NCBI GenBank assembly: GCA_020152595.1
Contig: JAIGNY010003204.1
Location: 55,001-119,000 of the forward strand
Source: Chiridota heheva
Lineage: Eukaryota > Echinodermata > Holothuroidea > Apodida > Chiridotidae
DNA: 64,000 nucleotides
Direction of reading: 5' to 3'
Shown: positions 2,871 to 64,000 of the stretch, piece after piece
Layout: every line of letters begins with the position of its first letter
Numbering within the stretch: position 1 is the first letter of the stretch
The notes under the pieces: model-generated
Database searches by the model: none
Told to the model about the DNA's origin: nothing
What the model saw: the letters and a program-made list of their open reading frames with translations, nothing else
Translations under genes and position numbers: made by a program

Positions 2871-3275
2871 ATTTGTTTTTCAAAAATTGGTCTCAAAAAG
2901 GATACAAATCATGAAAGTTTGCACAAATTTTGCCAAAAAAGATTTGATGATAGGGGCAGTTAAAATTTGACCGGAATGGGATGCATTGATATCCTTGACA
3001 GTTTCTCACGGGCTTTGAGGCCAAAGTAAGGTCTGGAAGTATATTGCAAGTAAGTTTTTGAGGAAAACCAGTAAGTTGTATGAGGCTCAACTCCCTGTCT
3101 GAAGTAACACAATTCTTTGAAAACAAAAGTAACTCAAGTAAACTACAGTACTGTGTTTTTTTTAACAAATCAAACATTTAACAATAGGTACAAAAAAAAA
3201 AAAAAAAACAATATACTGTACTCAAAATGGAATATGTTATCTGGAATTGGTATTTACATACAGTTTTATATTTGA

Positions 3276-4110
3276 AGTGGCAAACTGTGCTTCTGTAAGT
3301 TGCAAACTGTGCATCTGTAAGTGGCAAACTGTGCATCTGTAAGTGGCAAACTGTGCATCTGTAAGTGGCAAACTGCATCTGTAAGTGGCAAACTGCATCT
3401 GCAAGTGGCAAACTGCATCTGCAAGTGGCCCGCATCTGCAAGTGGCCCGCATCTGCAAGTGGCCCGCATCTGCAAGTGGCCCGCATCTGCAAGTAGCAAG
3501 CTGTGTACCTGTAAGTGGCAAACTGCATCTGTAAGTGGCAAACTGTACATCTGTAAGTGGCAAACTGCATCTGCAAGTGGCAAATTACATCTGCAAAGTG
3601 GCAAACTGCATCTGCAAGTGGCAAACTGCATCTGTAAGTGGCAAACTGCATCTGCAAGTGGCAAATTACATCTGCAAAGTGGCAAACTGCATCTGCAAGT
3701 GGCAAACTGTGCATCTGCAAGTGGCAAACTGCATCTGTAAGTGGCAAACTGCATCTGCAAGTGGCAAACTGCATCTGCAAGTGGCAAACTGCATCTGCAA
3801 GTGGCAAAATGTGCATCTGTAAGTGCAAACTGCATCTGCAAGTGGCAAACTGTATCTGCAAGTGGCAAACTGCATCTGCAAGTGGCAAACTGCATCTGCA
3901 AGTGGCAAACTGCATCTGCAAGTTGCAAACTGTGCATCTGTAAGTGGCAAACTATCTGCAAGTGGCAAACTGCATCTGCAAGTGGCAAAGTGCATCTGTA
4001 AGTGGCAAACTGTGCATCTGCTTGTGGCAAACTGCATCTGTAAGTGGCAAACTGCATCTGTAAGTGGCAAACTGTGCATCTGTAAGTGGCAAACTGTGCA
4101 TCTGTAAGTG
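3276..4110. repeat. 20-bp minisatellite upstream of first visible TAF10 exon
   Basis: About 40 units of GTGGCAAACTGCATCTGCAA, mostly 20 bp, mixed with 22-bp units (extra TG) and 17-bp units (GTGGCCCGCATCTGCAA at about 3420-3490). Because the unit length is not a multiple of three and no frame contains a stop, long open frames appear on both strands; they are artefacts. Many units carry CTGTAAGT, a near-perfect 5' splice-site hexamer, and the array ends about 110 bp before the TAF10 exon at 4224. A run of 13 C residues (4111-4123) follows. Confidence 0.95.
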
Positions 4111-12189: not shown

Positions 12190-14407
12190 AGATGGTGAAA
12201 CTGGTAGAAGATGAAAGGATTGGTAGTAGATAGAAGGATTGGTAGTAGATGGCAGGATTGGTAGTAGATGGCAGGATTGGTAGTAGATGGAAGGACTGGT
12301 AGTAGATGGAAGGACTGGTAGAAGATGGAAGGATTGGTAGCAGATGGAAGGACTGGTAGAAGATGGAAGGATTGGTAGTAGATGGAAGGATTGGTAGTAG
12401 ATGGAGGGATTGGTAGTAGATGGAAGGATTGGTAGTAGATGGAAGGACTGGTAGTAGATAGAAGGACTGGTAGAAGATGGAAGGATTGGTAGCAGATGGA
12501 AGGACTGGTAGAAGATGGAAGGATTGGTAGCAGATGGAAGGATTGGTAGTAGATGGAAGGATTGGTAGTAGATGGAAGGATTGGTAGTAGATGGAAGGAT
12601 TGGTAGTAGATGGAAGGATTGGTAGTAGATGGAAGGATTGGTAGTAGATGAAAGGATTGGTAGTAGATGGAAGGATTGGTAGTAGATGGAAGGATTGGTA
12701 GTAGATGGAAGGATTGGTAGAAGATGGAAGGATTGGTAGTAGATGGAAGGATTGGTAGTAGATGGAAGGATTGGTAGTAGATGGAAGGATTGGTAGTAGA
12801 TGGAAGGATTGGTAGTAGATGGAAGGATTGGTAGTAGATGGAAGGACTGGTAGTAGATGGAAGGATTGGTAGAAGATGGAAGGATTGGTAGAAGATGGAA
12901 GGATTGGTAGTAGATGAAAGGACTGGTAGTAGATGGAAGGACTGGTAGAAGATGGAAGGATTGGTAGAAGATGGAAGGATTGGTAGATGATGGAAGGATT
13001 GGTAGAAGATGGAAGGATTGGTAGTAGATGGAAGGATTGGTAGTAGATGGAAGGATTGGTAGTAGATGGAAAGATTGGTAGTAGATGGAAGGATTGGTAG
13101 TAGATGGAAGGATTGGTAGTAGATGGAAGGATTGGTAGTAGATGGAAGGATTGGTAGTAGATGGAAGGATTGGTAGTAGATGGAAGGATTGGTAGTAGAT
13201 GGAAGGATTGGTAGATGATGGAAGGATTGGTAGAAGATGGAAGGATTGGTAGTAGATGGAAGGATTGGTAGTAGATGGAAGGATTGTAGTAGATGGAAAG
13301 ATTGGTAGTAGATGGAAGGATTGGTAGTAGATGGAAGGATTGGTAGTAGATGGAAGGATTGGTAGATGGAAGGATTGGTAGTAGATGGAAGGATTTAGAT
13401 AGTAGATGGAAGGATTGGTAGTAGATGGAAGGATTGGTAGTAGATGGAAGGATTGGTAGTAGATGGAAGGATTGGTAGTAGATGGAAGGATTGGTAGTGA
13501 TGGAAGGATTGGTAGTAGATGGAAGGATTGGTAGTAGATGGAAGGATTGTAGTAGTAGATGGAAGGATTGGTAGTAGATGGAAGGATTGGTAGTAGATGG
13601 AAGGATTGAAGATAGTAGATGGAAGGATTGGTAGTAGATGGAAGGATTGGTAGATAGATGGAATGGATTGGTAGAAGATGGAAGGATTGGTAGTAGATGG
13701 AAGGATTGGTAGTAGATGATGGTAGTAGATGGAAGGATTGGTAGTAGATGGAAGGATTGGGATAGATTGTAGTAGATGGAAGGATTGGTAGATGGAGTAG
13801 AAGGAGTAGATAGATTGGGAGATGGAGATGGAAGGATTGGTAGTAGATGGAAGGATTGGTAGTAGATGGAAGGATGGAAGGATTGGTAGTAGATGGAAGG
13901 ATTGGTAGTAGATGGAAGGATTGGTAGTAGATGGAAGGATTGGTAGTAGATGGAAGGATTGGTAGTAGATGGAAGGATTGGTAGAAGATGGAAGGATTGG
14001 TAGTAGATGGAAAGGATTGGTAGTAGATGGAAGGATTGGTAGATGGAAGGATAGAAGATGGAAGGATTGGTAGTAGATGGAAGGATTGGTAGTAGATGGA
14101 AGGATTGGTAGTAGATAGATGGAAGATGGAAGGATTGGTAGTAGATGGAAGGATTGGTAGTAGATGGAAGGATTGGTAGTAGATGGAAGGATTGGTAGTA
14201 GATGGAAGGATTGGTAGTAGATGGAAGGATTGGATGGAAGGAGTAGATGGAAGGATTGGTAGTAGATGGAAGGATTGGTAGTAGATGGAAGGATTGGTAG
14301 TAGATGGAAGGATTGGTAGTAGATGGAAGGATTGGTAGAAGATGGAAGGATTGGTAGTAGATGGAAGGATTGGTAGTGGATGGAAGGATTGGTAGTAGAT
14401 GAAGTAG
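12190..14407. repeat. 19-bp minisatellite array, about 2.2 kb
   Basis: About 115 units of GGATTGGTAGTAGATGGAA (19 bp), with point variants (GAAGA for GTAGA, GGACT for GGATT) and many indels in the distal half (13.4-14.3 kb). The minus strand stays open for 757 codons because no frame of the complementary unit contains a stop; three units make a 57-nt, 19-residue Pro/Ser/Tyr/His-rich repeat. Indels do not close it for the same reason. The + strand is stop-rich (TAGTAG). This is satellite DNA in a TAF10 intron, not a gene. Confidence 0.95.
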
Positions 14408-32023: not shown

Positions 32024-35000
32024 CTATTTTGACAAACTGTCAAGATACTGTATAGCCATACCACCTGTCTAAAAGTGGATTATTTTGACAAACTGTCAAG
32101 ATATACTGTAGCCATGCCTTCTGTCTAAAAGTGGATTATTTTGACAAACTGTCAAGATATAGCCATGCCTCCTGTCTAAAAGTGAATTATTTTGACAAAC
32201 TGTCAAGATATAGTCATGCCTCCTGTCTAAAAGTGGATTATTTTGACAAACTGTCAAGATATAGCCGTACCTCCTGTCTAAAAGTGGATTATTTTGACAA
32301 TCTGTCAGGTATAGCCGTACCTCCTGTCTAAAAGTGGATTATTTTGACAAACTGTCAAGATATAGCCGTACCTCCTGTCTAAAAGTGGATTATTTTGACA
32401 AACTGTCAAGATATAGCCGTACCTCCTGTCTAAAAGTGGATTATTTTGACAAAGTGTCAAGATATAGTCATACCTCCTGTCTAAAAGTGGATTATTTTGA
32501 CAAACTGTCAAGATATAGCCGTACTTCCTGTCTAAAAGTGGATTATTTTGACAAACTGTCAAGATATAGCCGTACCTCCTGTCTAAAAGTGGATTATTTT
32601 GACAATCTGTCAGGTATAGCCTTGCCTCCTGTGTAAAAGTGGATTATTTTGACAAACTGTCAAGATATAGCCATACCTCCTGTCTAAAAGTGGATTATTT
32701 TGACAAACTGTCAAGATATAGCCGTACCTCCTGTCTAAAAGTGGATTATTTTGACAAACTGTCAAGATATAGTCATACCTCCTGTCTAAAAGTGGATTAT
32801 TTTGACAAACTGTCAAGATATAGCCGTACCTCCTGTCTAAAAGTGGATTATTTTGACAAACTGTCAAGATATAGCCATACCTCCTGTCTAAAAGTGGATT
32901 ATTTTGACAAACTGTCAAGATATAGTCATACCTCCTGTCTAAAAGTGGATTATTTTGACAAACTGTCAAGATATAGCCGTACCTCCTGTCTAAAAGTGGA
33001 TTATTTTGACAAACTGTCAAGATATAGCCATACCTTCTGTCTAAAAGTGGATTATTTTGACAAACTGTCAAGATATAGTCATACCTCCTGTCTAAAAGTG
33101 GATTATTTTGACAAACTGTCAAGATATAGCCGTACCTCCTGTCTAAAAGTGGATTATTTTGACAATCTGTCAAGATATAGCCGTACCTCCTGTCTAAAAG
33201 TGGATTATTTTGACAAACTGTCAAGATATAGTCATACCTCCTGTCTAAAAGTGGATTATTTTGACAATCTGTCAAGATATAGCCGTACCTCCTGTCTAAA
33301 AGTGGATTATTTTGACAAACTGTCAAGATATAGCCGTACCTCCTGTCTAAAAGTGGATTATTTTGACAAACTGTCAAGATATAGCCGTACCTCCTGTCTA
33401 AAAGTGGATTATTTTGACAAACTGTCAAGATATAGCCATACCTCCTGTCTAAAAGTGGATTATTTTGACAAACTGTCAAGATATAGTCATACCTCCTGTC
33501 TAAAAGTGGATTATTTTGACAATCTCTCAGGTATAGCCTTGCCTCCTGTCTAAAAGTGGATTATTTTGACAAACTGTCAAGATATAGCCATACCTCCTGT
33601 CTAAAAGTGGATTATTTTGACAAATTGTTAAGATATAGCCATACCTCCTGTCTAAAAGTGGATTATTTTGACAAACTGTCAAGATATAGCCATACCTCCT
33701 GTCTAAAAGTGGATTATTTTGACAAACTGTCAAGATATAGTCATACCTCCTGTCTAAAAGTGGATTATTTTGACAAACTGTCAAGATATAGCCGTACCTC
33801 CTGTCTAAAAGTGGATTATTTTGACAATCTGTCAGGTATAGCTGTACCTCCTGTCTAAAAGTGGATTATTTTGACAAACTGTCAAGATATAGCCATGCCT
33901 CCTGTCTAAAAGTGGATTATTTTGACAAACTGTCAAGATATAGCCGTACCTCCTGTCTAAAAGTGGATTATTTTGACAATCTGTCAGGTATAGCCTTGCC
34001 TCCTGTCTAAAAGTGGATTATTTTGACAAACTGTCAAGATATAGCCATACCTCCTGTCTAAAAGTGGATTATTTTGACAAATTGTTAAGATATAGCCATA
34101 CCTCCTGTCTAAAAGTGGATTATTTTGACAAACTGTCAAGATATAGCCATACCTCCTGTCTAAAAGTGGATTATTTTGACAAATTGTTAAGATATAGCCA
34201 TACCTCCTGTCTAAAAGTGGATTATTTTGACAAACTGTCAAGATATAGTCATACCTCCTGTCTAAAAGTGGATTATTTTGACAAACTGTCAAGATATAGC
34301 CGTACCTCCTGTCTAAAAGTGGATTATTTTGACAAACTGTCAAGATATAGCCATACAGTACCTCCTGTCTAAAAGTGGATTCTTTTGACAAACTGTCAAG
34401 ATATAGCCGTACCTCCTGTCTAAAAGTGGATTATTTTGACAAACTGTCAAGATATAGTCATACCTCCTGTCTAAAAGTGGATTATTTTGACAAACTGTCA
34501 AGATATAGCCGTACCTCCTGTCTAAAAGTGGATTATTTTGACAATCTGTCAAGATATAGCCATACCTCCTGTCTAAAAGTGGATTATTTTGACAAACTGT
34601 CAAGATGTAGCCATGCCGCCTGTCTAAAAGTGGATTATTTTGACAAACTGTCAAGATATAGTCATATCTCCTGTCTAAAAGTGGATTATTTTGACAAACT
34701 GTCAAGATATAGCCATACCTCCTGTCTAAAAGTGGATTATTTTGACAAACTGTCAAGATATAGTCATACCTCCTGTCTAAAAGTGGATTATTTTGACAAA
34801 CTGTCAAGATATAGCCGTACCTCCTGTCTAAAAGTGGATTATTTTGACAAACTGTCAAGATGTAGCCATGCCGCCTGTCTAAAAGTGGATTATTTTGACA
34901 AACTGTCAAGATATAGTCATATCTCCTGTCTAAAAGTGGATTATTTTGACAAACTGTCAAGATATAGCCATACCTCCTGTCTAAAAGTGGATTATTTTGA

Positions 35001-35861
35001 CAAACTGTCAAGATATAGTCATACCTCCTGTCTAAAAGTGGATTATTTTGACAAACTGTCAAGATATAGCCGTACCTCCTGTCTAAAAGTGGATTATTTT
35101 GACAAACTGTCAAGATATAGCCGTACCTCCTGTCTAAAAGTGGATTATTTTGACAAACTGTCAAGATATAGTCATGCCTCCTGTCTAAAAGTGGATTATT
35201 TTGACAAACTGTCAAGATATAGTCATACCTCCTGTCTAAAAGTGGATTATTTTGACAAACTGTCAAGATATAGCCGTACCTCCTGTCTAAAAGTGGATTA
35301 TTTTGACAATCTGTCAAGATATAGCCATACCTCCTGTCTAAAAGTGGATTATTTTGACAAACTGTCAAGATGTAGCCATACCTCCTGTCTAAAAGTGGAT
35401 TATTTTGACAAACTGTCAAGATATAGTCATACCTCCTGTCTAAAAGTGGATTATTTTGACAAACTGTCAAGATATAGCCGTACCTCCTGTCTAAAAGTGG
35501 ATTATTTTGACAATCTGTCAAGATATAGCCACACCTCCTGTCTAAAAGTGGATTATTTTGACAAACTGTCAAGATATAGCCATACCTCCTGTCTAAAAGT
35601 GGATTATTTTGACAAACTGTCAAGATATAGCCGTACCTCCTGTCTAAAAGTGGATTATTTTGACAATCTGTCAAGATATAGCCATACCTCCTGTCTAAAA
35701 GTGGATTATTTTGACAAACTGTCAAGATATAGCCATACCTCCTGTCTAAAAGTGGATTATTTTGACAAATTGTTAAGATATAGCCATACCTCCTGTCTAA
35801 AAGTGGATTATTTTGACAAACTCTCAAGATATAGTCATGCCTCCTGTCTAAAATTGGATTC
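32024..35861. repeat. 51-bp satellite array, about 75 copies, with higher-order repeats
   Basis: A 3.8-kb head-to-tail array. The 51-bp unit contains GTGGATTATTTTGACAAACT, GTCAAGATATAGCC and CCTCCTGTCTAAAA. As 51 is 17 codons and the unit lacks stops in one frame of each strand, frames of ~508 codons on + (unit VDYFDKLSRYSRTSCLK) and ~507 on - (unit NNPLLDRRYGYILTVCQ) run through it. A shortened variant (CTGTCAGGTATAGCC, one base less) at ~32306, 32612, 33529, 33833 and 33986 shifts the frame and cuts the open frames into blocks. A five-unit block recurs exactly 255 bp apart (34601 and 34856). It lies in a TAF10 intron. Confidence 0.97.
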
Positions 35862-43439: not shown

Positions 43440-44480
43440 TGACAGCTGATTATAATTTTGTCTTTGTAGAAATGACTGGTGTATTAAGTCTACTATGGAA
43501 GCTTGGGGTATTTATCCTCACATTAACAATTGTTAATGTATTTTAAACAAAATATATTTAACTTTTCTCCTATTCTAAGTATTTTCCCTCAAACTTTTCT
43601 TCAAGTGGTATATTATTATTATCCTTGCAAGATTCTGTTTTACTACTTTTCTGGCATGTAATGGTTTTTAAGCCAAAACATCGCAGGAAAAAATTTGATA
43701 GATTATATAAAAACTGAGAAATCTGAGGCAGTGACAACTAGTCTGAATTCAGTCGTTTCTATACAAAACTTCAAACTTGAATATCTCCTTAACGGAATAA
43801 GATTTTGTAAATGCTTTCTTCACCATTTTGTTTCCCTTGAAGTCCTCTTTTATGCAAAATGGACTCGCTTGACCACTGAACTAATCCTTTAACGAAATAA
43901 ACATTTTTAATGCTCTCTTCACTTTTGTTTCCTTTGAAGTCCTCTTTCGTATAAGATAGACTTGCTTGACCACTAAACTAATCCTTTAACGGAATAAGAT
44001 TTATGAATGCTTTCTTCACTATTTTATTTCCGACGACGACGAGTGAACACACAATTACAATGACGGGGTCGTCGCCTGCGTATTCGGTTATGATAGTAAC
44101 ACTGCTATCACGAAACGCTTAATACGACCCGGACGAGAACACAGGTACGACGTACGGACAGACATAACATCGACAACCAAGTCAATGTCCACGGCCTTTG
44201 ATAACCAGTTGTGGTGCACTGGCGTGTCTACCCAACCCAGGCTCGAACCCAGGGCCTCGTGGTCTGTAGACAGGTATGATAACCGCTACACCACAGTTAG
44301 TAGACAATATTTTATTTCCTTTGAAGTCCTCTTTTATATACGATGGACATGCTTGACCACTGAACTAATTCTTTAACGGAATAAGATTTATAAATGCTTT
44401 CTTCACTATTTCATTTCCTTTGAAGTCCTCTTTCATATACGATGGACATGCTTGACCCCTGAACTAGTTCTTTAATCTTT
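43440..44480 (-). mobile_element. MITE family P, copy 3, with its end amplified as a ~98-bp satellite
   Basis: 43440-43890 is the inverted counterpart of the 38.05-38.77 and 14.5-15.08 kb copies (AGAAATGACTGGTGTATTAA, CTTCAAACTTGAATATCTCC). Its terminal segment (AACGGAATAAGATTT...TTTGAAGTCCTCTTT...CTTGACCACTGAACTAATC) is then repeated four times at ~98-bp spacing (43790, 43889, 43987, 44374). Unit three is split by the SINE at 44032-44307. The nearby open frames are not protein-like. Confidence 0.75.
44020..44319 (-). mobile_element. tRNA-derived SINE (family A), full length, with 12-bp TSD
   Basis: SINE body 44032-44307 is flanked by the 12-bp duplication TATTTTATTTCC (44020-44031, 44308-44319). 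On the minus strand the head reads GTGGTGTAGCGGTTATCATA (box A region) and CTGGGTTCGAGCCTGGGTTG (box B GGTTCGAGCC). A body of ~190 bp follows with CGTGGACATTGACTTGGTTG and CGAATACGCAGGCGACGACC, ending in a (CGT)n tail. About 276 bp. It is inserted within one unit of the surrounding satellite. Confidence 0.93.
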
Positions 44481-45035
44481 GAAAATGGAGATCTACCTTT
44501 TACACTTTAAAAAAAAACACGCTAGACTGAAATGTGAGGGCGCTTGTTTTTTTTTGTGTGCGAATTTTACAGATAAATCATGCACAAAAGATCGATAAAC
44601 TTCATGCCCCCATAGTAATAATAATAAGTATTATTTATATAGCATTCAGTGTACCTACTGTGGTGTAGCGGTTATCATACATGTCAACAGACCACGAGGC
44701 CCTGGGTTCAAGCCTGGGTTGGGTAGACACGCCAGTGCACCGCAACTGGTTATCAAAGGCCGTGGACATTGACTTGATTGTCGATGTTATGTCTGTCCGT
44801 ACGTCGAACCTGTGTTCTCGTGATAGATAGCATTGTCAATATCATAACCGAATACTCCAGCGATGACCCCGTCATTGTAATTGTATGTTCACTCGTCGTC
44901 ATAGCGCTCACTTCTACGTAGTCCACTGACGACGTGAGGGCAAAGGTCACTTGAATATTAATATGAACTAGAAATTAGACCGTTGCGTGCTAGATAAGCA
45001 TGTAATTTGTGGGGGACCCCTAAAAATACGCCCTC
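44481..45035 (-). repeat. Dispersed repeat (partner 38.8-39.07 kb) interrupted by nested insertions
   Basis: AAACTTCATGCCCCCATAG (44600-44615) and the downstream GTGAGGGCAAAGG..ACCGTTGCGTGCTAGATAAG (44935-45000) are adjacent in the 38.8-kb copy but separated here by ~310 bp. The inserted DNA carries TAATAATAATAAGTATTATT and the SINE at 44649-44900. Confidence 0.6.
44639..44910 (+). mobile_element. tRNA-derived SINE (family A), internal deletion
   Basis: SINE 44649-44900 in + orientation: CTACTGTGGTGTAGCGGTTA (box A), CTGGGTTCAAGCCTGGG (box B), body, and tail CACTCGTCGTC. It is flanked by ATAGCATTCA (44639-44648) and ATAGCGCTCA (44901-44910), a 10-bp target duplication with two mismatches. 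It lacks a ~20-bp body segment (GGGTCGTATTAAGCG) present in the other copies. Confidence 0.85.
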
Positions 45036-47960: not shown

Positions 47961-47962
47961 TT

Positions 47963-48720
<758 letters not shown>

Positions 48721-48829
48721 TAAATCCATATATATATGTATATATATAAATATATGATATATGTTATGTTGATAAATTATATTATATATAATATGTTAAT
48801 AAATGCAAATAACTTTGCATTTATCAACA

Positions 48830-49930
48830 TGAATGACATCTGCCATGTTTGGGACCAAAAAACTAACTTATCCAGATCAGTTTGCAAATATGAAGAATTC
48901 CTGGCATCATCAACACCCTGTACAGCTTAGTGTCATCAGCAAATCTACAAATCCTGGAGCCATGGGATACATCAATATCATTAATGAAGATTAAGAAAAA
49001 AATCGGACCTAACACAGAACCCTGAGGAACACCACTTGTAGCCTTCTTCCATGGAGATACTTCACCATTAACAACAACTCTTTGTAAACTAACCAAGATT
49101 TTATCCAACTGGCACACTTTCTCTCCACACCAAGCGCTCTTGTTTTCAACATGAGCCTACCCAATGGAACCTTATCAAATGCTTTAATTGGAAATCTAAA
49201 TACATGATATCCACATTATGACATGAATCAGCTAGTTTTAGTAACACCGTTAAGAAACTCCAATAAATGAGAAACACAAGACCTCTTAAGTAAGAACCCA
49301 TGCTGGGACAAATTCAACAAACCATTGACCAGTAAATGATCTAGTACAACATCATTAGCAATGGACACCATGACATTGTACACAGCACTAGTAAGATTCA
49401 CTGGCTTATAATTACAGGGCAAACTGTGGTCACCTTTTTTTTTATATAGGAGTGACATCAGCAATTCTCAAATCATTAGGAAGAACACCAATATCAGCGC
49501 ACTTTGAAAAGATAATACTCAGGGGAACAGAAAGAGTACCAGAACACTCATCAGACAGCAGGGTGTATACCGTCTAGACCAGGTGCTTTCTTTACATTTA
49601 AACCCTTTAAATTCTTAGACACAACATCAACTGAAAAATCAACATCCTTAACTCTGTTAACTGGAGAGCTTACACTAAGATAATCCCCAACATCATCAGC
49701 AAGGAACTCCTTAGTAAAAACAGACACAATGCACTAGTCAATCCTCATCCATATCCTCTTACTACTATTGACAGATTGATAGTAGCAACATCATTACCCT
49801 GATGAGCACCAAGAACCTTCTTGGTCAGTTGGTTGCTTGCTTTGAGCAAACATAAGAATGAAACGATTATCTTAACCTCTTGGACAAACGTTTTCCAAAA
49901 AGAACTTTAGTATTTTTTATCAAACTCATT
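48830..49930 (-). pseudogene. CR1/Jockey-like LINE reverse transcriptase remnant
   Basis: On the minus strand, in order from 49.9 to 48.85 kb: linker (NQLTKKVLGAHQGNDVA); RT block KKKGDHSLPCNYKPVNLTSA and LLNLSQHGFLLKRSCVSHLL (49464-49228); a broken motif-A region (VDIMYLDF, ~49195); then SGVPQGSVLGPIFFLIFIND and CRFADDTKLYR (49117-48890). The FADD catalytic pair is intact, but stops and frameshifts separate the blocks and the C-terminal region is lost against the AT-rich tract. No endonuclease domain was found. Confidence 0.85.
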
Positions 49931-53447: not shown

Positions 53448-54287
53448 TTAGCCCTACAGTGGAAAGTTTGTTTTCTCCACGCTGAAGATTTACAACATAA
53501 TTTATACCTAGCAAAATACTATACTTCAATTTTCGTTTATACCACTATAATTTTAATGCATTTCTTTATAAATCTGAGAGAGAAATTATGCCAAACTTCG
53601 TCAAACTAGCTAAGCTCCACGCCAAAGATCATTGGCATGACATACATCCAGACTGGATCAGTGCACAGACTTTCAGCAGGGAGTTGTGATCTCCCGGCTT
53701 TCAGCCACATGATTGAACTTGGTTGACACTTTACTGGAAGAAGATTTTGATTTGAACGTAGGCCTAGTAAATAGATATAAACTGCCATGGCATGTAGCAG
53801 GTTTTTTTAAATATATTTTGTTATCACAACTTCCAATGCAAGTTAAACACAGCTAAGGTTAAACTTTAGCTCATTAACACCAACACTTTACAGCAGAACT
53901 AACGTTAGGACCCTAGCAATCATTCAATTTCAACCAACAGCTAAAAACACTAAGTGATCTTGGCTCCAAATCGAAGCTCTTGAGTTCATGAAGCATAACA
54001 GTTGATACCACCATGGTCCTCTAGATTGTTTTTGTTTTAAAACTCTTCACTCTCAGACTGTAGACTAATCAAACCTCTTCCAAACGGCCGTGAACGTGAT
54101 CTCACAGTCAGACAATCCCACGTGTGTGCACATCTGCCCTTGCACGAAATCAAAAGTAAAAAGCGATCCTTCAGTCCTAACTCCTTGTTTACATAGTAAA
54201 AGGATCAGCTGTGCCGAACTTATCAAGTACATTATGGCCCAAAATAAACAAGATCCGACGCGCACCAACAGCGCGTTTGCGTACTAG
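53448..54287 (+). repeat. 0.8-kb direct duplication, copy 1
   Basis: Aligns over its length with 61478-62243 at high identity with small indels: ACAGTGGAAAGTTTGTTTTC, GCTAAGCTCCACGCCAAAGA, GGGAGTTGTGATCTCCCGGC and AATAAACAAGATCCGACGCG in both. Copy 1 has ~40 bp extra near 53775-53820. Both end in GCGTACTAG. No open frame is conserved between the copies. It could be a dispersed non-autonomous element. Confidence 0.85.
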
Positions 54288-55059: not shown

Positions 55060-55420
55060 GCATAGCAGATGCCAGTCTCGTGCGACCAGGACGGAAGTGG
55101 ATGAACACCGGGTTTTCACCATACTCTTTTCGAGAAGTGTTCAGAGTACCAGGTAGGGTGTGACTGTCCTACCATCGGGACCGATGGCTTAACGTCCCCT
55201 CCGAAGGACGGCGAGCACCATTCAACCATTGCCACTTTTCTCAACAGCTGAATGAGGAGCAGGAGCTGTACGACGTACTTCCGCTTTGATGATCGGCGTA
55301 TCTGTCTGCATAGCTGTGGAAAAACTGCTTAGGCCTGTTTGAGGCTTGAATCGGGTACCTCCAGCATCTCAGTCGTGTGTTCTACCAACTGAGCTACCTG
55401 ACTCCTAGCCTAAGGCCTAG
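55060..55420 (-). mobile_element. tRNA-derived SINE (family B), near full length
   Basis: On the minus strand the head at ~55412-55335 reads GTCAGGTAGCTCAGTTGGTA (box A), ACACGACTGAGATGCTGGAG and CCCGATTCAAGCCTC (box B). The body follows at 55315-55060 with CGCCGATCATCAAAGCGGAA, CAGCTGTTGAGAAAAGTGGC and GGTCCCGATGGTAGGACAGT. This copy links the tRNA-like head to the body also seen at 7.2 and 50.9 kb. No target duplication was defined. Confidence 0.75.
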
Positions 55421-55858: not shown

Positions 55859-56236
55859 GTGATTATTCAAATCACACACTCACAACTTATCTATGTATCG
55901 ATGGGCAATTACATTCGTATATACAGATCAAGTTGGAAATTGTCAAAATTTAAATTACACAAGAGAAAATTACTCCTCTTATTCCTTACCCTTTCTGGTG
56001 ATATCGAAAGCAATCCTGGACCCTCCCCAAAATTTCCTTGCAAACAATGCAACAAATCTTTCAAAATAACCAGAAAGGTATCTGTTGCGATGACTACTCG
56101 TGGATTCATAATAAGTGTGCAAGCAATAGTAATGCAGCTTACAACACCCTCGCATCATCAACCGATGATTGGTTTTGTTCGAACTGTTTGGCTCCTTGTG
56201 GCCTGTGTGGACTCCAGTGTAGGAGATCTGATATAG
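55859..56236 (+). pseudogene. LINE ORF 5' segment carrying a 2A-like motif
   Basis: The frame reads hydrophobic KLLLLFLTLS directly before GDIESNPGP (55997-56023), followed by SPKFPCKQCNKSFKIT, the start of a Cys-rich finger. The correct finger frame is lost after ~56075, and the remaining codons are out of frame. D-I-E-x-N-P-G-P is the exact active consensus of 2A ribosome-skipping peptides, and the hydrophobic upstream context is also typical. In other echinoderm CR1-type LINEs 2A-like sequences sit at this N-terminal position (recalled knowledge). Confidence 0.85.
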
Positions 56237-56574
56237 CAGTACAGTGTGACAATTGTGATCAATGGATCCACTATAAGTGCTGCAACATTGATGACTCACA
56301 ATACAGCGACCTTATGCATTCTAGCTGTGCCTGGATATGTTATACTTGTGACTTCATAAAAAAATTCTCCGATTCTTTCTTCTCAACTAACAATTCCATC
56401 AACTGTACCAACTCATATGAAGCACTTCAAAGTTATTTTTCCGGTTTTAACTCAGGGTCCAACGACGATCCCGATGTCAAATTGAAAACTAATCCAAAAA
56501 AAGGAAAAAAGGAAGGTTCTAAAATTTCTTGTTATCAACTTTCAAAGTGTTCGAAACAAGAAAGCCTCCACTGA
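56038..56574 (+). pseudogene. LINE PHD-like zinc-finger segment
   Basis: The frame holds WIHNKCASN...WFCSNC and then CGLCGLQCRRSDIAVQCDNC, DQWIHYKC and WICYTC, i.e. the second half of one and a complete second Cys4-His-Cys3 (PHD-type) finger. The first half of finger one lies in the frame ending near 56075, so a 1-base frameshift separates them. At ~56515 the frame leaves the element's coding path and the endonuclease continues in another frame. PHD fingers N-terminal to the endonuclease are known in CR1-clade elements. Confidence 0.8.
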
Positions 56575-57216
56575 AAGTCTTATAAAAGACAAAGACCCAG
56601 ATGTCATCATTGGCACTAAAACCTGGCTAAATTCCGAAATCAACAACTCTGAAAATTTTCCCCACAACTATACAGTCATTCGCAAAGATAGAAGTACAAA
56701 TGGTTATGGTGGTGTATTACAGGCAATACAAAATGACCTGATTTTCACTGAGCTCACTAAACTAGACTGACTGTGAGATCATCTGAACTAAATTCCAATT
56801 CCCTATGGAAAAGAGCATGTATGTAGGAACTTTTTACAGGCCCAGTCACAATGACCTTACTAGCCTTTTTGAGTTGTGTCAAAATCACTACAAAAGATAG
56901 GGAAAAATGCTGACAAAAACAATGTTATTCTTACCAGTGATATCAATCAACCTAACATTGACCGGAGCCAAAACATTATTTCAGGCACTAACGCTTTCTC
57001 CGAAGCGGTCAAAATGCTTCTTGAAGTGGCCGATTCATTCAACCTCACTCAAATGGTGCAGTTTCCTACCAGAGATAACAACATTCTTGATCTTGTATTT
57101 ACTAACAACTCACCAGCTGTTAACTCAGCTAACATCATACCCGGTATAAGTGACCATGATATTGTTGAAATGACCCTATTCATCTCCCCATCTCGTAAAA
57201 AGTTGCCTAAACGTTA
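56515..57216 (+). pseudogene. LINE AP-type endonuclease segment (catalytic Glu lost)
   Basis: Reads NFQSVRNKK (motif I), then DPDVIIGTKTWLNSEINN, where the usual catalytic Glu of ETWL is Lys (56618-56620), then a stop near 56768. It resumes at 56876 with VILTSDINQPNID (normally GDFN), FNLTQMVQFPTRDNNILDLV and PGISDHDIV (SDH at 57149-57157). The domain order fits non-LTR endonucleases. Both the Glu and the GDFN changes would abolish activity. Confidence 0.85.
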
Positions 57217-57914
57217 AATCTATCTAAGGAAAAAATGTAACACAAAACGCATAAAAGAAGACCTGTCTAAACTTAAACTGCGATATTATTCTAAATTCAA
57301 TAAGTCATCCATTAATGTTGATGAAAAATGGAATATCTTTGAAAAGGAAATTAAACTGATTATTGAAGAAGAAAAAAAACAACTCACAAATTCACCTTAA
57401 CTAAACTATATCTACCTTGCTTCACCCATATCCAACGCCGTCTCTGCAAGAAAAAAACAGAAACTGTTCAAAAAAGCTAAGAAAACTCAACAAATCCATG
57501 ACTGGAATACATATAAAAGCTTTAGGAAATCTGTCTGTAAAAATATTAAAGAAGCTAGAAACAAGTTCATCTGTAATAAACTTAAAAATTCCCTAACTGA
57601 AAGCCCTAAGGCATGTTTGTCCTACGTCAAAGACTTAAAAGTAATTTCGTGGGTGTGTTAGACCTTATGAACAACGGTAAACTTTGTAGTGACAGTATGA
57701 CTGAAGCTAACATTCTAAACAGCCACTCTTTCAGCGTTTTCACAGAAGATACCTCTCAAATCCCTGTAACTAAACCACTCACCACCAACAAAATAAACCA
57801 ATTCATAATCAATCCAGAAGGTGTCAAAAAGCTACTGCAAAACCTAAACCCAAACAAAGCCTCAGGTCCTGACCATATACCACCATTGTTCTTAAAAACA
57901 CATGCGGAAGAAGA

Positions 57915-58130
57915 CCTTTATGAAACGCCAGTGCACCACAACTGGTTATCAAAGGCCGTGGACATTGACTTGGTTGTCGATGTTATGTCTGTCCGTACGT
58001 CGTACTTGTGTTCTCGTCTGGGTCGTATTAAGCGTTTCGAGATAGCATTTGTACTATCATAAGCGAATACGCAGGCGACGACCCCGTCATCGTAATTGTG
58101 TGTTCAACTCTCTCTCTCTCCTTTATGAAA
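57915..58130 (+). mobile_element. tRNA-derived SINE (family A), 5'-truncated, inserted in the LINE
   Basis: SINE 57926-58119 lies between two copies of CCTTTATGAAA (57915-57925 and 58120-58130). It begins at CGCCAGTGCACCACAACTGG, so the tRNA-like head is missing, and ends with a (CT)n run at ~58108-58119. Removing the insert and one duplication rejoins the LINE frame (EEDLYEI then LTDLFQ). It has the same orientation as the LINE. Confidence 0.93.
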
Positions 58131-58639
58131 TCCTAACTGATCTCTTCCAAACATCTGTGGATAACGGTACAATCCCAAACAAGTGGAAGGAAGCAACCAT
58201 ATGTAGCGTTTTTAAGAAAAGGTGATAAACACGACTCAGCTAATTATAGACCAGTTTCTTTTACCTGCGTGTGTAGTAAAATCCTTGAGCATATAATCCA
58301 CTCAGATGTGATGAAATTCCTTGATGAGCATAATATCTTAACTGATCTCCATCATTGCTTTCGTACAAAAATATCAACTGAAACACAACTTTTCTAAACA
58401 ATAAATGATATTTCTAAACAAATTGACCAAAACAGTACCATCTCTATGGCTATACTCAACTTCTCAAAAGCGTTTGATAAAGTCCCACACCAACGTCTGT
58501 TATCCAAACTTTACGCATATGGCATTGATGGAAATCTACTGGCCTGGTTTGCATCCTTCCCCAGCAGCCGCATTCAGCGTGTTGTCTGTGATGGTGAAAT
58601 CTCATATCCTAAACAAGTTCTATCTAGTGTACCACAAGG

Positions 58640-58940
58640 TACCGTTTTAGGCGACGACGACAACGAGTGAACACACAATTACAATGACGGGGTCATCGCC
58701 TACGTATTTGGTTATGATAGTAACAATGCTATCACGAAACGCTTAATACGACCCAGACGAGAACACAGGTACGACGTACGGACAGACATAACATCGACAA
58801 CCAAGTCAATGTCCACGGCCTTTGATAACCAGTTGTGGTACACTGGCGTGTCTACCCAACCCAGGCTTGAACCCAGGGCCTCGTGGTCTGTGGACAGGTA
58901 TGATGACCGCTACACCACAGTAGGTAGATACCGTTTTAGG
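58640..58940 (-). mobile_element. tRNA-derived SINE (family A), full length, inserted in the LINE
   Basis: SINE 58652-58928 is flanked by the perfect 12-bp duplication TACCGTTTTAGG (58640-58651, 58929-58940). It is on the minus strand, with the tRNA-like head at the right end (minus-strand GTGGTGTAGCGGTCATCATA and CCTGGGTTCAAGCCTGG) and the (CGT)n tail at the left. It splits the RT motif PQGTVLG from PLLFLFYVND. Confidence 0.95.
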
Positions 58941-59166
58941 TCCTTTACTCTTCCTTTTTTATGTCAATGACATCCCTGATAATATAAACAGCACGGTTAG
59001 ACTGTTTGCTGATGATTGTCTTGTGTATAGAACAACTGATAAGCCCTTTAAACTAACAAATCCTCCAAGATAATCTAAATAAATTTAAACAATGGCAAAT
59101 GAATTTCAACTCTTCTAAATGCTACACCCTCTCAATATCTCCTAGAAAATGCTATAAATCACCAGT

Positions 59167-59796
59167 TTATACCTTGTGACACCAGCCGCTAAAACGTGTC
59201 AACTCCCACCTGTACCTAGGTGTTGAAATCGTTAATAAACTCAGATGGGATAAACATATAAACAACATCACCAACAAAGCAAACTCTGTACTTGGCATAT
59301 TAAGACGTAACCTCCCAAACTGTCCCGCTGACGTTAAAAACACTGCATATAAAGCTCCAGTTAGGCCAGTACTTGAGTATGCATCAGCAGTTTGGGACCC
59401 CATCACAAGTGCGATGTAGATAAGCTTGAATCAATTCAACGGAGAGCAGCCAGGTTCTGTATGGCAGACTACTCTTATAAATCCAGTGTCACTAGCATGC
59501 TGTATAAATTAGATTGGCCCCTGCTAATAACAAGAAGGAACACCCGTCTAAAAATGCTATATAAAAGCAATAATAGTCTTGTTGCCATTGATAATGATAA
59601 CCTGATCCCAAACGCAAGAATTGATACAAGAAATAACCATGAGTTGAATTTCCACGTTCCTTATGCTCAAAAGAATGTTTATAAATACTCCTTCTTTCCT
59701 CAAACACTAAAAGATTGGAATGCTTTACCATCGGACATATTACATGCACCAAGTCTAAACTGTTTCAGAGCTAAACTTGCTAAGCTTAATGATTGA
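59167..59796 (+). pseudogene. LINE C-terminal domain
   Basis: Two frames encode the CR1-type C-terminus: YLGVEIVNKLRWDKHINNIT to APVRPVLEYASAVWDP, then after a 1-2 base change at ~59398 CDVDKLESIQRRAARFCMAD to FRAKLAKLND and a stop at 59794. The block shows the usual E-x2-QRRAARF signature. It is followed by ~95 bp of 3' UTR shared with the inverted copies at 62.3 and 63.8 kb. Confidence 0.85.
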
Positions 59797-59890
59797 TTTT
59801 TCTTCTTCATACTTTTGCTCCGCTCTGTTGGCGTTTATGTCCTCTGGAAGGATTTTTGCCGACTTAACCTATTCAGATTCAGATAGACCT

Positions 59891-61477: not shown

Positions 61478-62243
61478 TTAGCTAGTCCCACAGTGGAAAG
61501 TTTGTTTTCTCCACGCTGAAGATTTACAACTTAATTTATACCTAGCAAAGTACTATACGTCAGTTTTCGTTGATAGCACCAAAATTTTAATGCATTTCTT
61601 TATAAATCTGAGAGAGAAATTATGCCAAACTTCGTCAAACTAGCTAAGCTCCACGCCAAAGATCATTGGCATAACATACATCCAGACTGGATCAGTGCAC
61701 AGGCTTTCAGCAGGGAGTTGTGATCTCCCGGCTTTCAGCCACATGATTGAACTTGGTTGGCACTTAATTGGGAGAAGATTTTAATTTGAACGTAGGCCTA
61801 GTAAATGCAAGTTGCACACAGCTTAGGTTAAACTTTAGCTCATTAACACCAACATTTTACAGCAGAACTAACGTTAGGACCCCAGCAATCATTCAATTTC
61901 AACCAACAGCTAAAACTGATCTTGGCACCAAATCGAAGCTCTTGAGTTCATGAAGCATAACAGTTGATACCACCATGGTCCTCTAGGTTTTGTTGTTATA
62001 AAATTCTTCACTGTCAGACTGTAGACTAGTTAAACCTCTTTCAAACAACCGTGAACGTGGTCTCACAGTCAGACAATCCCACGTGTGTGCACCCCTGCCC
62101 TGCACGAAGTCAAAATTAAAAAGCGATCTTTCATCAGTCCTGACTTACAAAATAAAAGGATCAGCTGTGCCAAACTTACCAACTACGTAATGGCCCAAAA
62201 TAAACAAGATCCGACGCGCACCAAAAGTGCGCCTGCGTACTAG
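61478..62243 (+). repeat. 0.8-kb direct duplication, copy 2
   Basis: Second copy of 53448-54287, ~8 kb downstream in the same orientation. It is shorter by several small deletions. It ends at GCGTACTAG, where a SINE B head follows instead of the sequence after copy 1. Confidence 0.85.
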
Positions 62244-62245
62244 GA

Positions 62246-62315
62246 GTCAGGTAGCTTAGTCGGTAGAGCACACGACTGAGATGCTGAAAATACCCGGTTC
62301 AAGCAGGGAGCTGGT
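62246..62315 (+). mobile_element. tRNA-like SINE head (family B)
   Basis: GAGTCAGGTAGCTTAGTCGG (box A), ACACGACTGAGATGCTG and CCCGGTTCAAGCAGGG (box B) match the head of the 55.4-kb SINE. No SINE body follows; the sequence passes directly into an inverted LINE tail. Confidence 0.65.
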
Positions 62316-62321
62316 TCAAGC

Positions 62322-62400
62322 CTCTGAATCTGAATAAATTAAGTCGGCAAAAATCCTTTTAGAGGACATCAACGCCAACGGAGCGTAGCAAAAGTATGAG
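62322..62400 (-). mobile_element. CR1-type LINE 3' UTR fragment
   Basis: The reverse complement of the LINE end at 59797-59880 (GTCGGCAAAAATCC, GAGGACATCAACGCCAACGG, AAAAGTATGA). Only the 3' UTR is present, and it starts with the CTGAATCTGAAT tail. Confidence 0.8.
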
Positions 62401-62439
62401 GATTTAAAAAAAATAATTAATCAATTAATAAGCTCCGTA

Positions 62440-63755: not shown

Positions 63756-63761
63756 TATTTC

Positions 63762-64000
63762 TGAATCTGAATCGGTTAAGTCGGCAAAAATCCTTCAAGA
63801 GGACATGAACGCCAACCGAGCGTAAAAAGTATGAGTAAAAAAATATAAAAAATATAAAAAAACTAGTTAGCAATACAAGTGTTAGTAAGTTTAGCTTTGA
63901 AACAGTTGAGACTTGGTGCATGTACAATGTCTGACAGTAAAGTATTCCAATCCTTTAGTGTGTGAGGGAAGAACGAGTGTTTATATAGGCCTACATTCTT
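63762..64000 (-). pseudogene. CR1-type LINE 3' end, running off the window
   Basis: On the minus strand the right edge encodes the same C-terminus as 59700-59796 (reverse complement of TTGGAATACTTTACTGTCAG and CACCAAGTCTCAACTGTTTC), then a stop, 3' UTR and CTGAATCTGAAT tail at 63762. It is oriented tail-to-tail with the 55.7-59.9 kb copy. The 5' part lies beyond the window. Confidence 0.85.

Follow-up and report, generated by a model that had tools for sequence, protein, structure and literature searches.

A 2A-type motif ahead of the zinc finger in a decayed APE-endonuclease LINE from Chiridota heheva

The window analysed here is a stretch of 64,000 nucleotides from contig JAIGNY010003204.1 of the Chiridota heheva assembly GCA_020152595.1, and it encodes the 2A-type motif GDIESNPGP on the plus strand at 55997-56023. 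To judge from the sequence, the site is very probably the 5′ coding part of a decayed, apparently single-ORF APE-endonuclease LINE, whose ancestral polyprotein began with a 2A/StopGo element. The initial annotation had read a full 2A consensus at these positions, preceded by the Leu-rich stretch LLLLFLTLS, in what it took for a CR1-type LINE. Translation of 55901-57100 confirmed the motif and its coordinates, and the Leu-rich stretch was likewise correct. The frame from 55901 reads MGNYIRIYRSSWKLSKFKLHKRKLLLLFLTLS-GDIESNPGP-SPKFPCKQCNKSFKITRK, with GGTGATATCGAAAGCAATCCTGGACCC as the motif DNA, and the octapeptide DIESNPGP, which agrees with D(V/I)ExNPGP, occupies 56000-56023. The motif lies 32 residues behind an in-frame ATG at 55901, the sole ATG available after the upstream stop (T at −3), and 5 residues ahead of the first Cys of the zinc finger. 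The skip point is predicted between the Gly codon 56018-56020 and the Pro codon 56021-56023. The features of the element, including similarities to two LINE loci retrieved by motif scan (L014 and L040, described below), are as follows.

55901..55996, plus strand: leader MGNYIRIYRSSWKLSKFKLHKRKLLLLFLTLS of 32 residues, basic (8 Lys/Arg, acidic residues absent) and leading into a Leu-rich core (translation)
55997..56023, plus strand: 2A/StopGo motif GDIESNPGP (translation, chance tests)
56024..56074, plus strand: SPKFPCKQCNKSFKITR, opening the first zinc finger, still in the 2A frame (translation; L040 alignment across the 2A and the finger start)
56038..56571, plus strand: shifted-frame ORF that by eye completes finger 1 and then holds PHD finger 2 (residues 54-104; Pfam PF00628, E 1.3e-6)
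56486-56767, plus strand: APE-type endonuclease piece without Pfam match, similar to L040 (E 8.6e-9)
56876-57214, plus strand: APE-type endonuclease piece, Exo_endo_phos_2 (Pfam PF14529, E 1.1e-6, above its cut-off)
57926..58119, plus strand: SINE within the LINE, lacking the first part of the unit; flanks CCTTTATGAAA at 57915-57925 and 58120-58130 (boundaries by eye)
58137-58394, plus strand: RT piece without Pfam match, similar to L014 (E 1.4e-8)
58398-58649 and 58930-59070, plus strand: RT pieces (Pfam RVT_1), split by a SINE
58652..58928, minus strand: second SINE copy within the LINE; flanks TACCGTTTTAGG at 58640-58651 and 58929-58940 (boundaries by eye)
59180..59796, plus strand: C-terminal part with the final stop, without Pfam match, closest to L014 among the compared loci
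59797..59883, plus strand: 3′ UTR, closing with the 3′ end ATTCAGATTCAGA; the final base is shared by two other partial copies

In the mechanism that we propose, a ribosome translating the ancestral element would make a 40-residue leader ending in ...GDIESNPG, the Gly-Pro bond would not be formed and the leader would be released. Translation would then resume at Pro to give a finger-endonuclease-RT protein starting P-SPKFPCKQC. Upon failed skipping, the fusion would keep the basic, Leu-rich N-terminus.

The coding region behind the motif was assigned piece by piece. The 2A frame runs into the CKQC of finger 1 and then breaks at ~56075-56085 (site read by eye); the rest of finger 1, CCDDYSWIHNKC, was located by eye in the shifted frame. 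BLASTP matched the peptide of the 2A frame to L040's open LINE frame in a single alignment that spans both the 2A and the finger start, with 14 of 38 columns identical (E 9e-4). Finger 2 of the window aligns to the same L040 region at E 4e-8, and the rest of finger 1 aligns to L040 weakly (E 0.055). These alignments place the motif directly before the finger in both the window LINE and L040. The PF14529 match identifies the endonuclease as AP-type. RVT_1 (PF00078) was matched by the two RT pieces at E 5.8e-5 and 9.8e-4, each piece being below the Pfam gathering score, and the region also matches the RT of L014 (E 6e-15). The C-terminal pieces 59180-59416 and 59377-59793 match L014 at E 6e-12 and 2e-13, respectively. 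A CBM_3 Pfam match on 57218-57397 (E 0.019) was below cut-off and was dismissed as noise.

The motif was sought in viral_contigs and genome_contigs with the codon pattern GGNGAYRTNGARNNNAAYCCNGGNCC, in which the residue after Asp may be Val, Ile or Met. Matches numbered 2 stretches in the former collection and 43 in the latter. Requiring Val or Ile after Asp excluded L028, L037 and the second L041 row and reduced the 47 motif rows to 44. LINE sequence surrounds the motif in six of the 44 rows, all in genome_contigs. An RT was recognized by Pfam in L014, L030 and L040 and by tblastn with L014 in L013 and L032 (E 1.6e-43 and 2.3e-68), while L015 was assigned by a Pfam endonuclease alone. The L014 record is titled gill symbiont of Bathymodiolus. 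The six LINE loci, which stand in records titled as bacteria or archaea, probably represent eukaryotic contamination from the host or another eukaryote. At E 1e-4, none of the six LINE proteins matched the loci of another 34 of the 44 rows.

The first LINE frame has its 2A in the N-terminal part in all six records, at a distance of 29-101 residues from the upstream stop or the end of the contig. The same N-terminal placing supports what the initial annotation had proposed for the window, namely a 2A-type motif before the finger of a finger-endonuclease-RT LINE, from which skipping could release a short leader. Since the search that brought up the six records used the motif as its query, they speak to its position and context rather than to its conservation. 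Behind the 2A, an endonuclease follows in L015 and L030 (Pfam) and in L014 (similarity to L015, no Pfam match). L040 continues in one frame with a finger (similarity to the window, no Pfam match), an endonuclease and an RT. In L032 and L013, the 2A is followed by an ORF that lies upstream of the RT frame and matches no Pfam model; by eye, this ORF contains a finger in L032 (weak BLAST, E 0.017) and a coiled-coil ORF1-like stretch in L013.

Three other loci from the scan were kept apart from the LINE set. L033 (NZ_JABBPG010000020.1) and L044 (NZ_JAFNJU010000023.1) come from different bacterial genera and have the same printed translation around the 2A, followed by antibody-chain-like sequence. 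By eye, both look like laboratory vector contamination and were set aside as relatives. L007, a Planctomycetota record (VGXS01000063.1), has an open frame of 2462 residues that contains GDVEPNPGP twice, each time behind a Leu-containing stretch. It may be eukaryotic or viral, and its two rows were left out.

The residues ahead of the motif were compared with published StopGo classes and across the motif rows. The upstream hexapeptides of viral StopGo elements were grouped into classes in a 2026 study (PNAS, PMC12846837), the relevant passages of which describe an LLLLSG-like class as Leu-rich, with (A/S/C)G before p12 and associated with D at p12 and S at p15. Motif 6 of this Leu-rich (A/S/C)G class is given there as active in vitro. 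In the window, FLTLSG precedes D at p12, and p15 is S; by eye, this upstream sequence resembles the LLLLSG-like class and offers a suitable same-frame context for a 2A/StopGo element. Hydrophobic hexapeptides ending in (S/C)G were also present in L013, L014, L015, L030 and L032. Six of the 44 rows have hydrophobic residues at p7 and p9 with A/S/C at p10. One of them is an L007 motif, the other L007 motif lacking the pattern, and five are LINEs; the sixth LINE, L040, fails because it has Lys at p9. No in-frame Met precedes the motif in L015 or L040 (the L040 frame is open at the contig end), and leader length in L013, L014, L030 and L032 varies with the Met chosen. The best hydropathy was 1.41-3.51 for the window and the six LINEs, and 35 other rows had a median of 0.56 and a maximum of 2.57, although the leader lengths scored differ (≤40 versus ≤20 residues). 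The 35 control rows include the two vector-like ones; the six LINEs, L007 and L005, whose leader is too short, are left out.

Several alternatives to an ancestral skipping leader were weighed. That the octapeptide arose by chance in decayed sequence is highly improbable. D[VI]ExNPGP occurs once across the six frames of the window, and six-frame residue frequencies predict 3.6e-5 octapeptides per window, or 1.4e-6 with the preceding Gly (p11). No octapeptide appeared in 300 simulated windows (first-order Markov), in which NPGP appeared 0.4 times per simulation. The tetrapeptide NPGP by itself was rejected as an informative signal, as three of the four in the window (44246, 44697 and 58870) each lie inside a copy of one SINE. 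The bare motif also occurs without a LINE in very large collections, which is in favor of chance and makes context matter; here the context fits, as the motif is in frame with the finger, stands directly ahead of it and follows a hexapeptide of a fitting upstream class, and the distant LINE relative L040 has the motif at the same place. The octapeptide could instead be genuine but inactive, simply part of the N-terminus with no skipping, a reading that we consider distinctly unlikely. Some D(V/I)ExNPGP sequences are indeed reported as inactive (Viruses 2024, PMC11512398), and the Phe at p6 and Thr at p8 of the window's 2A are not among the substitutions tested in the published passages. The residues at the F2A-tested positions argue for activity: in the published F2A passages, activity was abolished by D12A and N16A and reduced to 34% by L7A and 82% by L9A, and the window has D12, N16, L7 and L9 together with the fitting class noted above by eye.

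A further possibility concerns the fate of the leader rather than the motif. By analogy with the sea urchin leaders, the window's leader might combine StopGo activity with that of an ER signal sequence and thereby send a fraction of the LINE protein to membranes; we regard this as unlikely. LINE proteins are expected to work in the cytoplasm and nucleus. The basic segment free of acidic residues, followed by a Leu-rich core with a best 9-residue hydropathy of 2.68 immediately ahead of the 2A motif, speaks for dual targeting, and both activities were shown for SpNLR2A6 in the passages of Roulston 2016 (PMC4981915). However, a Leu-rich stretch is also used by this StopGo class in the exit tunnel, which explains the core equally well, so the core need not mean targeting. 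Hydropathy also fails to separate the LINE leaders cleanly from the other motif rows. Extending the idea, hydrophobic 2A leaders ending in (S/C)G could be a recurrent targeting-capable LINE leader in distant lineages, which we think quite doubtful; what such leaders precede, here and in other records, is a finger, endonuclease or ORF1-type protein. If true, a retrotransposon protein would be made partly with and partly without a membrane-targeting N-terminus, in a ratio set by skipping efficiency.

With a skipping leader as the preferred reading, the window LINE is one more example of 2A-bearing LINEs, which are already known: 2A in non-LTR elements has been published (FEMS 2017, PMC5972666; Viruses 2024, PMC11512398; Roulston 2016, PMC4981915). 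The 2As of non-LTR elements are described as internal sites in passages of Roulston 2016 (PMC4981915), whereas those in the window and the six records are N-terminal; this may be a matter of wording or a difference between elements. The SpNLR2A leaders of sea urchin NLRs, as described in the same source (PMC4981915), are also N-terminal, with a hydrophobic stretch ending in the 2A, and the window shares the N-terminal position and the hydrophobic core adjoining the 2A. SpNLR2A precedes an NLR, whereas the window 2A precedes PHD-EN-RT and has no NLR downstream. The 2A of the trypanosome LINEs L1Tc and Ingi receives a passing mention in PMC4981915 and PMC5972666. These protist elements resemble the window in having an in-frame LINE 2A. 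Comparable in layout is L040 (record title Thiotrichales bacterium BB2), whose 1365-residue LINE frame, open at the 5′ end, has the 2A, finger, EN and RT as in the window; it is distant (27-40% over the pieces aligned at E < 0.01) and has the hexapeptide LLLKAG. The trypanosome L1Tc/Ingi 2A is said to have been described by Heras in 2006 as in frame and N-terminal, and to our knowledge these elements have no PHD finger. Odon reportedly found 2A in the Rex1, Crack, L2, L2A, CR1 and Ingi clades in 2013; those elements are said to carry a virus-like 2A in frame with an endonuclease and RT ORF, as in the window, where the copy is decayed. The present LINE adds a finger-endonuclease-RT element to those apparently starting their polyprotein with a ribosome-skipping leader, and such LINEs can be retrieved from contaminated prokaryote assemblies by motif scan. 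The exit tunnel, targeting and a Pro-started protein are candidate reasons for a hydrophobic 2A leader in differently built LINEs.

The window copy is dead. By eye, about 8 frame changes and no fewer than 4 in-frame stops disrupt its coding region, which 2 SINEs also interrupt, so no full protein can now come from it. The initial annotation had stressed that the motif stayed intact while the rest of the element decayed. This says nothing on selection: the survival probability of the octapeptide at 5-10% random substitution is 0.44-0.19, and an intact motif in one decayed copy was therefore rejected as a sign of selection. Two further 3′ fragments of the family lie on the minus strand at 62323-62420 and 63760-64000, the latter running to the window's end. 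Where their 3′ parts overlap with the window LINE, identity is 77% and 86%, compatible with a per-copy divergence of around 5-10%. Coding sequence stops at 59796 and the LINE itself at 59883; ATTCAGATTCAGA is the end of all three copies (shared end base at 62323 and 63760 in the fragments). The 5′ end of the LINE was not found in the window.

The two SINE copies that interrupt the LINE have 11-12 bp flanking duplications and are among four in the window, in both orientations (44031-44304, 44652-44900, 57926-58119 and 58652-58928). The SINE head GGTTCAAGCC appears tRNA-like, a judgment made by eye because Rfam at the gathering threshold gave no match on 40000-64000. ARAGORN detected no tRNA in the window.

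Relatives were also sought by finger or RT instead of by motif. With the finger ORF as the query, 13 stretches of viral_contigs were pattern-matched and none confirmed. The RT piece gave 103 stretches in genome_contigs, none confirmed, and 17 in viral_contigs, one confirmed (L003); L003 was rejected by eye as a relative, its 142-residue frame not being RT-like. RT alignment A1 gave 55 stretches in viral_contigs with none confirmed, and RT alignment A2 gave 57 with one confirmed (L047), the match lying at the very end of its contig. These finger and RT scans (viral_contigs, and for RT also genome_contigs) yielded no LINE with a readable 5′ part, and tblastn of L014 against plasmids gave no match at E 1e-15.

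Other repeats surround the element. Direct repeats of ~290 bp at 54000-54287 and 61962-62243, 83-89% identical and ~7.96 kb apart, flank the LINE, 1.6 kb upstream of the leader ATG and 2.1 kb downstream of the LINE 3′ end. We tentatively take them for a dispersed repeat rather than LTRs, since copies elsewhere share the LINE 3′ end. A 65-nt neighbor (62240-62304) of the second repeat copy recurs inverted at 55344-55408. A second decayed LINE fragment lies on the minus strand at 48866-49467 (RVT_1, E 6.1e-7 on 48866-49156); it is distant from the 2A LINE (27-59% in short tblastn pieces) and adjoins a long TA array at 47962-48794. Large tandem arrays were found at 12202-14401 (19-bp unit x 117), 32025-35860 (51-bp unit x 75) and 3275-4110 (20-bp unit x 41).
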